Shown here one piece after another: positions 5,383-18,339 of a DNA stretch of 64,000 bases. The stretch is from positions 1-64,000 of the forward strand of contig VGOM01000006.1 in assembly GCA_016875915.1 (NCBI GenBank). Direction: 5' to 3'. How positions within the stretch are numbered: position 1 is the stretch's first letter; each line of letters begins with the position of its first letter. Below the pieces are notes generated by a model that saw nothing but the letters and a program-made list of their open reading frames with translations, was not told the origin of the DNA and searched no databases. The position numbers and the translations under genes are program-made. Source of the stretch: Chloroflexota bacterium (GTDB lineage: Bacteria > Chloroflexota > Dehalococcoidia > UBA2247 > RBG-13-53-26).

Positions 5383-6270
5383 ATGAGGCTGGGTGCGTTC
5401 GAGATCAGGGAACCGGTGCCCCAACTGAAGGAGCCGCACGCCCTGGCGGTGCTCCGTCCCTGGATCGACGTGGGCAACGTGGGCAGCCTGACCCTGTCCG
5501 GCCTGGAGTCCCACTTCAAGGCCACAGAGCTGGCCAGGCTGGCCAAGCCGGGGAACTTCTTCGACTTCACCCGCTACCGCCCCACCCTGTACCTGGAGAA
5601 CGACCGCCGCGAGGTGTGGATCCCCAACACCACCATCACTTACAGCAGAGGGGAGGGCGAAAGCGACTTCCTCTTCCTGCGGCTCCTGGAGCCGCATATG
5701 CTGGCCGAGATCTACATCGATTCCGTGCTCAAGGTCCTGAAGAGGATGGGGGTGAAGCGATACCTGCTGCTGGGCTCGATGTACGACATGGTGCCCTACA
5801 CCCGGCCGCTGCTGATCACCGGAACGGTGAGCAACCTGAAGCTGCAGAACGCGCTGGAGACGGTCCGAGTGGTGGGCAGCGACTACGTGGGCCCGACCAC
5901 CATCGCCTTCCTCATCTCCCAGAAGGCCCCCCTGATGGACATCGAGACGGCCAGCCTGGTGATCCATCTGCCCCAGTACCTCACCCTGGAGAACGACTAC
6001 AGGGGCAAGAAGGGGCTGCTGGAGGTGCTCTCCGCTCTCTACGGGATCCCCATAGCCCGGGAGGACATCGACCAGGCCAAGGAACAGGAGGAATCGGTGA
6101 GGCGGATGGCGGAACACATCATGCAGCAGGAGCCGAGGTACAAGCCCATCCTGGAGCATCTGGAGTCCACCTACGACGCCCGGGTAGGCAAGCAGAAGGG
6201 GGAGACGCCGCTGTCGCCGGAACTGGAGCAACTCCTCCAGGACCTGAGCAAACGATTCGGCCAGCAGTAG
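5383..6270 (+). CDS. PAC2-family protein (proteasome assembly chaperone-like)
   Basis: A 295-aa protein. VLRPWIDVGNVGSLTLSGLESHF is the usual PAC2 opening, and LLEPHMLAEIYIDSVLKVLKRMGVKRYLLLGSMYD and TIAFLISQKAPLMDIET follow in the family order. The fold resembles a purine nucleoside phosphorylase-like hydrolase. In archaea and actinobacteria relatives associate with proteasome or PEP-related functions, but no proteasome gene is visible here. Start choice is the first ATG after the repeat, without a strong ribosome site. Followed by two membrane or secreted proteins on the same strand. Confidence 0.85.
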   Translation: MRLGAFEIREPVPQLKEPHALAVLRPWIDVGNVGSLTLSGLESHFKATELARLAKPGNFFDFTRYRPTLYLENDRREVWIPNTTITYSRGEGESDFLFLRLLEPHMLAEIYIDSVLKVLKRMGVKRYLLLGSMYDMVPYTRPLLITGTVSNLKLQNALETVRVVGSDYVGPTTIAFLISQKAPLMDIETASLVIHLPQYLTLENDYRGKKGLLEVLSALYGIPIAREDIDQAKEQEESVRRMAEHIMQQEPRYKPILEHLESTYDARVGKQKGETPLSPELEQLLQDLSKRFGQQ

Positions 6271-16974: not shown

Positions 16975-17251
16975 GAATGGGAGTGGTCTGCGTCGGCGGC
17001 GTGATTGAGACGTCTAGTCCCCTCTGATGGTGGGGCCAATGGTTTGCTGATGCAGGCGATGTCCTTGGGCGCGCCGAGCATTGGGGTTCTTGATGTGGTC
17101 CGTGCATCGCATTCGGAGATGGCAAATGCAGCCGTCTCTCACATTGCGGGTTACTATTGAAGCCCGGCCGTGCGTGGTTCCGGATCGATCGACGTGATTC
17201 CGGATGTCAGGCGCGTAGTTCAACGCGGTTTCTTGACAAGGAGGGAAAGAC

Positions 17252-17614
17252 ATGGCAAGCCAACTCTTCATCGGACTTCATGGCAGCGAAGACCCGACAA
17301 AGGCCACCTTCCCCTTTCTAATGGCTGGAGGTGCCTTGGATGCCGGGCAACAGACGGGAATAGTCCTGCTCGGTGACGCGGTGGTGCTGATGAACAGCGC
17401 CGTCGCGGACAACGTGCAAGGCGTTGGATTCCCGCCTCTGAAAGACGTGATGGCGAAGGTGATTGCCGCCAAGGTCCCCATTTACATATGAGGGCTTTGT
17501 GCCCGCGGTCGCGGGATCGCCGAAAAAGACTTGGCTGGCAAGAACGCGAAGTTCGCCATGCCAGCAGACGGAGCAAAGCTCATCGCCCAGTACGACAAGG
17601 TTGTCAGCTTCTAG
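17252..17614 (+). CDS. DsrE-family protein with in-frame UGA: candidate selenoprotein
   Basis: Read through the TGA at 17489-17491 this is a 120-aa DsrE/DsrF-like protein. GLHGSEDPTKATFPFLMAGGAL and GIVLLGDAVVLM open the fold, and GVGFPPLKDVMAKVIAAKVPIYI leads into UGA-Gly-Leu-Cys-Ala-Arg-Gly-Arg-Gly-Ile. Family members carry a CGxC motif at exactly this place before ARGI. After the UGA the same frame runs on (AEKDLAGKNAKFAMPADGAKL) to TAG at 17612. A hairpin with a GGTC loop follows the UGA. The family transfers sulfur or handles thiol redox. AAGGAGGGAAAGAC is the ribosome site. If the UGA is not decoded, this is an otherwise intact gene with one nonsense change. Confidence 0.75.
17502..17515 (+). 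promoter_or_regulatory. SECIS-like hairpin just after the in-frame UGA
   Basis: CCCGC (17502-17506) pairs with GCGGG (17511-17515) around the four-base loop GGTC (17507-17510). Fifteen bases separate the UGA from the loop. Bacterial SECIS elements are short stem-loops at about this distance inside the coding region with G at the start of the apical loop; E. coli fdhF has GGUC in its loop. The stem is only five pairs as drawn. Confidence 0.55.
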
Positions 17615-18072: not shown

Positions 18073-18339
18073 ATGGCTCGAAGGATTATCGACAACTGCA
18101 CTGCGTGCGGTGCATGCGAACCTGAATGCGCGAACGGGGCCATCTCTGAGGGAAGAGCCGCATTCATCATTGACCCGGACAAGTGCACGGAATGCGTGGG
18201 AATTGCCGCATCGCCGAAATGCGCGGAGGCATGCGGGGTGGACGCCTCTCAGCCTGATCCCAAGCATGTGGAGACCCGAGAGCAACTGCTCGCCAAGTGG
18301 CGACGGCTGCATCCCGGGCAAGAGCCAGCGGCGCTGTGA
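18073..18339 (+). CDS. 2[4Fe-4S] ferredoxin
   Basis: An 88-aa ferredoxin starting MARRIIDNCTACGACEPEC. The first cluster has the regular CxxCxxCxxxC ligands. The second is CTECVGIAASPKCAEAC, with an eight-residue insertion between the second and third Cys as in Alvin-type ferredoxins, which usually have low and split potentials. The C-terminal tail after residue 60 is a charged helix. CAGGAGGGCACCAC precedes the ATG. Likely a soluble electron carrier; partner not evident among its neighbours. Confidence 0.9.
   Translation: MARRIIDNCTACGACEPECANGAISEGRAAFIIDPDKCTECVGIAASPKCAEACGVDASQPDPKHVETREQLLAKWRRLHPGQEPAAL

Follow-up and report, generated by a model that had tools for sequence, protein, structure and literature searches.

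The gene at positions 17252 to 17614 of the DNA analyzed here (a stretch of 64,000 nucleotides, hereafter the window, which forms bases 1-64000 of an 87,882-base contig) almost certainly encodes a DsrE-like selenoprotein in which the UGA at 17489-17491 is read as selenocysteine (Sec). A preliminary description had put forward this reading, with a U-G-L-C active site, and it is supported by the conservation of the TGA among relatives, a covarying hairpin downstream, the presence of Sec machinery in the genome, and homology along the full length of the read-through product. The features concerned are as follows.

17240-17244, plus strand: Shine-Dalgarno sequence GGAGG, 7 nt 5′ of the ATG (from the sequence)
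17252-17614, plus strand: predicted gene for a DsrE-like selenoprotein of 120 aa, in which UGA encodes Sec and TAG is the stop (homology and AlphaFold2)
17489-17491, plus strand: in-frame UGA, codon 80, predicted Sec at the first UxxC position (homologous TGA codons and alignment with YchN)
17492-17504, plus strand: small predicted hairpin (GGGC/GCCC) right after the UGA, adjoining the SECIS stem (predicted fold)
17498-17500, plus strand: TGT for Cys83, the second (resolving) UxxC position (sequence and relatives)
17505-17520, plus strand: putative SECIS hairpin, with arms 17505-17510/17515-17520 and apical loop GCGG at 17511-17514 (fold and relatives)

Read-through product and DsrE fold

The frame proved to be exactly as first described, running from an ATG at 17252 to the TGA at 17489 and then through 40 more sense codons to the TAG at 17612-17614. 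Read through, it gives a protein of 120 aa (MASQLFIGLHG...VPIYI-U-GLCARGRGIAEKDLAGKN...VVSF). An open frame beyond a TGA is weak evidence by itself; at least 40 open codons follow the TGA in 63 of the 145 mechanically called open reading frames in the window (62.5% GC) that are at least 79 aa long and end in TGA. Given that 43% of comparable frames match it in this respect, we rejected the length of the open frame as evidence. What counts instead is homology on both sides of the UGA: identity to the UGA-bearing relatives is 35 to 59% on the 5′ side and 24 to 55% on the 3′ side. The GC content by codon position also is alike on the two sides within 17252-17614.

The Pfam DsrE profile (PF02635) matches residues 6 to 120 of the read-through product with an E value of 3.6e-14 and a score of 53.4 bits, against a gathering cutoff of 22.7; among NCBIfam models, none names the protein. 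An AlphaFold2 model built from an alignment of 52 homologues has the DsrE fold with a mean pLDDT of 97, and the best Foldseek matches to this predicted structure are YchN, DsrEFH, the Sulfolobus DsrE, and TusBCD. In the model, a beta strand ends at residue 80, where the active helix starts, and the UxxC motif comprises Sec80-Gly-Leu-Cys83. In the alignment, the counterpart of codon 80 (the UGA) in Escherichia coli YchN is the first Cys of its CxxC motif, which bears out the prediction that the UGA would fall at this Cys. Equally well founded was the claim that a gene caller would truncate the protein at residue 79, and that the active site would thereby be lost.

The UGA could be a real stop that yields a 79-residue protein, the frame downstream being a relic; UGA does end translation normally at other places in the window, as in the ferredoxin gene at 18073-18339. 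We consider a real stop highly improbable here. Half of the redox motif falls within the last 40 residues, as do conserved positions and several of the secondary-structure elements that build the DsrE core; such residues would not have been retained without translation. Taken with the conserved UGA, the SECIS hairpin, and the Sec machinery, the family match argues that the 79-residue product is not the real product of this gene.

Conservation of codon 80, the hairpin, and the Sec machinery

The search for relatives covered some 900 genomes, most of them from the same class and phylum, and a set of 84,980 species genomes whose records are named. Across these, 49 distinct sequences (the window's own included) have TGA at the codon corresponding to codon 80, while deeper relatives have TGC or TGT at this position; L023, L037-L039, and L041-L046 are Cys homologues of this kind. 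The earlier concern that relatives might carry unrelated residues there is thus not borne out, Ser being confined to one two-member clade. The UGA carriers are mostly Chloroflexota. The others are metagenome-assembled genomes (MAGs) labeled Acidobacteria, Acidimicrobiia, Rokubacteria, Desulfobacterales, Deltaproteobacteria, and Planctomycetota, for some of which binning errors are possible; two Desulfobacterales MAGs (L091 and L092) fall within the UGA clade of the tree. With the root not fixed, the tree has 3 label changes at codon 80, compared with a mean of 12.9 when labels are shuffled, and the labels would fit a single Sec clade with later losses.

Several sequences depart from the common pattern. 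L034, which lies inside the UGA clade, has Cys at position 80, and its second Cys is replaced by Ser. In L057 and L069, Ser occupies the two active positions (SGMSS), a pattern that may indicate a nonredox role or a degenerate paralogue. This Ser clade is the neighbor of the window gene in the tree, with moderate support (84/83).

As for distribution, the alignment query returned 21 loci from the 84,980 species genomes, and a single-sequence search of genome contigs gave no match. No match to the window gene was found in two genomes of the same genus (63 and 68% complete), so the gene appears to be patchily distributed. No phage homologue of the protein was found, and three plasmid matches were all below 40% identity.

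These comparisons bear directly on whether the TGA could be a recent pseudogene mutation or a sequencing error, in which a Cys codon (TGC or TGT) became TGA and no Sec is inserted. TGA is indeed one base from either Cys codon, and the genome is a draft of 115 contigs. However, the TGA at this codon is shared by 49 distinct sequences drawn from many independent assemblies, it is followed by a covarying hairpin, and conservation on its 3′ side is about equal to that on its 5′ side. We regard this explanation as very unlikely for the window gene; at the level of the family, the sequences already contradict it.

The hairpin common to the relatives was defined from 39 sequences, aligned free of gaps from the UGA. 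Its apical loop starts 19 nt past the UGA, and its top has the form GCCC-GUG-GGGU. Below this, one pair is C-G in 17 sequences and G-C in 17, and the next is U-A in 13 and A-U in 11; 31 double changes were counted in all. Paired cells make up 88.6% of this alignment, in contrast to 33 to 61% when the 3′ arm is slid by one to three columns, and the covariation score of 0.258 (versus 0.108 in shuffles) was reached by none of 500 shuffles.

The window's own hairpin (GCGGUC-GCGG-GAUCGC) has a 6-bp stem, 19 nt between the UGA and the loop, and G as the first loop base, and it falls inside all the limits that PMC13188914 gives for the bacterial SECIS model. Its stem stands at the same distance from the UGA as the hairpin of the relatives, shifted by one column relative to the consensus pairing, and the near-invariant sequence of the relatives' hairpin (GCCCGUGGGGU) is not in the window copy. 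The 39 nt after the UGA (17492-17530) have a minimum free energy of −17.1 kcal/mol and an ensemble frequency of 0.90. This fold is only moderately better than that of shuffled sequences (z = −1.88), and energy alone would not have proved the window SECIS. An alternative hairpin picked out by eye, CCCGC-GGUC-GCGGG, was discarded, as the minimum-energy fold is instead the stem with loop GCGG. The GGGC/GCCC hairpin at 17492-17504 may be incidental, because it is absent from the conserved structure of the relatives.

The preliminary description had pointed to the Sec machinery as a check, and selA, selB, selD, and a tRNA-Sec are all in the genome. selB lies at about 66.4 to 68.3 kb of the same contig as the window, with selD directly upstream in the same orientation (at about 68.3 to 69.4 kb; L009, 8309-9370, minus strand). 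Beyond selD, and still on this contig, are a cysteine desulfurase family gene, a YedE selenium transporter, and selA. The tRNA-Sec gene (selC, anticodon UCA) is on another contig of the same genome. Among genomes with a UGA-type DsrE, selA was found in 20 of the 21 tested, the exception being 81% complete. The presence of selA nevertheless separates Sec from Cys carriers poorly, because most Cys carriers have it too.

selD carries an in-frame UGA of its own, in the N-terminal active-site motif GAGUASKL, and the TIGR00476 match runs through it. Judged from this sequence, the SelD of the source genome is itself a predicted selenoprotein, whose start a gene caller would place too late. A scan of the window for additional Sec genes, by motif and codon periodicity, returned 13 candidates; among these, the DsrE gene alone has, by eye, a credible redox-protein context.

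An in-frame UGA within a conserved gene might also arise if the source organism had reassigned UGA to Trp or Gly. We find this extremely improbable: the complete Sec system is present, relatives have Cys at codon 80, and UGA terminates other conserved genes, including the ferredoxin gene. With UGA acting as a stop in conserved genes, reassignment is already contradicted.

Proposed mechanism and the ArsM-like neighbors

For the selenoprotein reading, we propose that SelB and Sec-tRNA(Sec) would decode the UGA at 17489-17491 with the aid of the hairpin at 17505-17520, giving Sec80-Gly-Leu-Cys83. The product would be a thiol/selenol protein of the DsrE family, probably cytosolic. Sec80 would occupy the place of the active Cys in YchN, TusD, and DsrE; the Cys of DsrE receives sulfane sulfur, and in Allochromatium vinosum DsrE the sulfur-binding residue is Cys78 (PMC3397948). 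The likeliest course is that Sec80 makes the nucleophilic attack and that Cys83 then resolves the product as a selenenylsulfide, a couple that would be fast and reversible. Attack by Sec80 and resolution by Cys83 would suit a redox factor or a sulfur- or selenium-transfer factor. Sec insertion, the chemistry, and the substrate of this protein are matters that we infer, as is the step from the modeled DsrE structure to a reaction; confidence in the exact reaction is far lower than in the selenoprotein reading.

The recognized neighbors of the window gene are an ABM-like protein, a cupin, a YfhL ferredoxin, and a SnoaL protein, from which no functional link was found. Among relatives, an ArsM-like methyltransferase gene adjoins the DsrE family gene on the same strand in 11 independent loci, two examples being the following.

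L077, 5147-5932: ArsM-like methyltransferase beside DsrE
L079, 6072-6857: ArsM-like methyltransferase beside DsrE

In nine of these loci (L077, L020/L083, L035, L019/L080, L053, L047/L076, L079, L078, and L022/L093), the DsrE is of the Sec form, and in two (L037 and L042) it is of the Cys form. Beside a Sec-type DsrE, the ArsM-like neighbor is itself a predicted selenoprotein wherever the codon is readable, with UGA at the place of its motif (mostly WTGU). L037 combines a Cys-type DsrE with a Sec methyltransferase, and in L042 both are of the Cys form.

No methyltransferase lies beside the window gene, and the ArsM of the source genome is unlinked to it and of the Cys type; the ArsM link thus stands as a hypothesis about the subfamily and not as a finding on this gene. 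One possibility, which we offer tentatively and hold to be rather doubtful, is that the Sec-DsrE subfamily is a dedicated partner of the ArsM-like Sec methyltransferase. The two genes would form a metalloid-handling pair with selenium in both active sites (some members being UxxU), and the window gene, as a solo member, would act with the unlinked Cys-form ArsM of its genome. Pairing of ArsM with a redox selenoprotein is not without precedent, since NCBIfam holds fused ArsM/AhpD and ArsM/DUF2284 proteins. The linkage provides a testable substrate hypothesis for DsrE-like selenoproteins.

Two lineages have UGA at both active positions (UxxU), namely, L020 at 1735-1746 (the same as L083, from 4276 on) and L078 at 6238-6249. 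The second UGA is 10 nt from the SECIS loop, which is outside the stated spacing, and a search with a narrow UxxU DNA pattern found no instance in 60 relatives. This apparent UxxU form needs confirmation.

Comparison with known systems

The preliminary description was right that DsrE-like selenoproteins had already been described. A 2005 report gave members with a UxxC motif from the Sargasso Sea, and one of 2006 gave them from Desulfovibrio vulgaris; the GOS data also contain them, and they appear in current lists (PMC1088965, PMC1794560, PMC2398784, and PMC13188914). The window protein shares with them PF02635, the UxxC motif, and a single Sec, the likeness being one of family and motif, and its gene is a new member of this known group. 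Those reports list few members (1 to 21), whereas the subfamily described here is common in Chloroflexota and has UxxU forms in two lineages; the 2026 list gives the DsrE-like family as UxxC with one Sec, and UxxU is not given there. The subfamily is likely missing from annotation, because standard gene callers end the protein at residue 79, without its active site. The family offers a natural series in which a single small redox protein occurs in Sec, Cys, Ser, and double-Sec forms.

E. coli YchN (1jx7) has the same fold (Foldseek E value of 3.2e-6) and a CxxCxxxRGI motif at the same place, but it has Cys where the window protein has Sec, and a structural alignment of the two gives 19% identity. 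DsrE of DsrEFH and TusD of TusBCD also share the fold, with the active Cys78 at the corresponding place; these proteins have a single active Cys rather than CxxC. Unlike those systems, the window gene has no DsrF/DsrH or TusB/TusC partner among its recognized neighbors (no dsrF/dsrH or tusC/tusB was found there). Finally, the double selenoproteins ArsM/AhpD (NF041537) and ArsM/DUF2284 (NF041536) likewise join an ArsM-like Sec methyltransferase to a second selenoprotein domain, whereas the relatives of the window gene have a separate, unfused DsrE-like gene as the partner.
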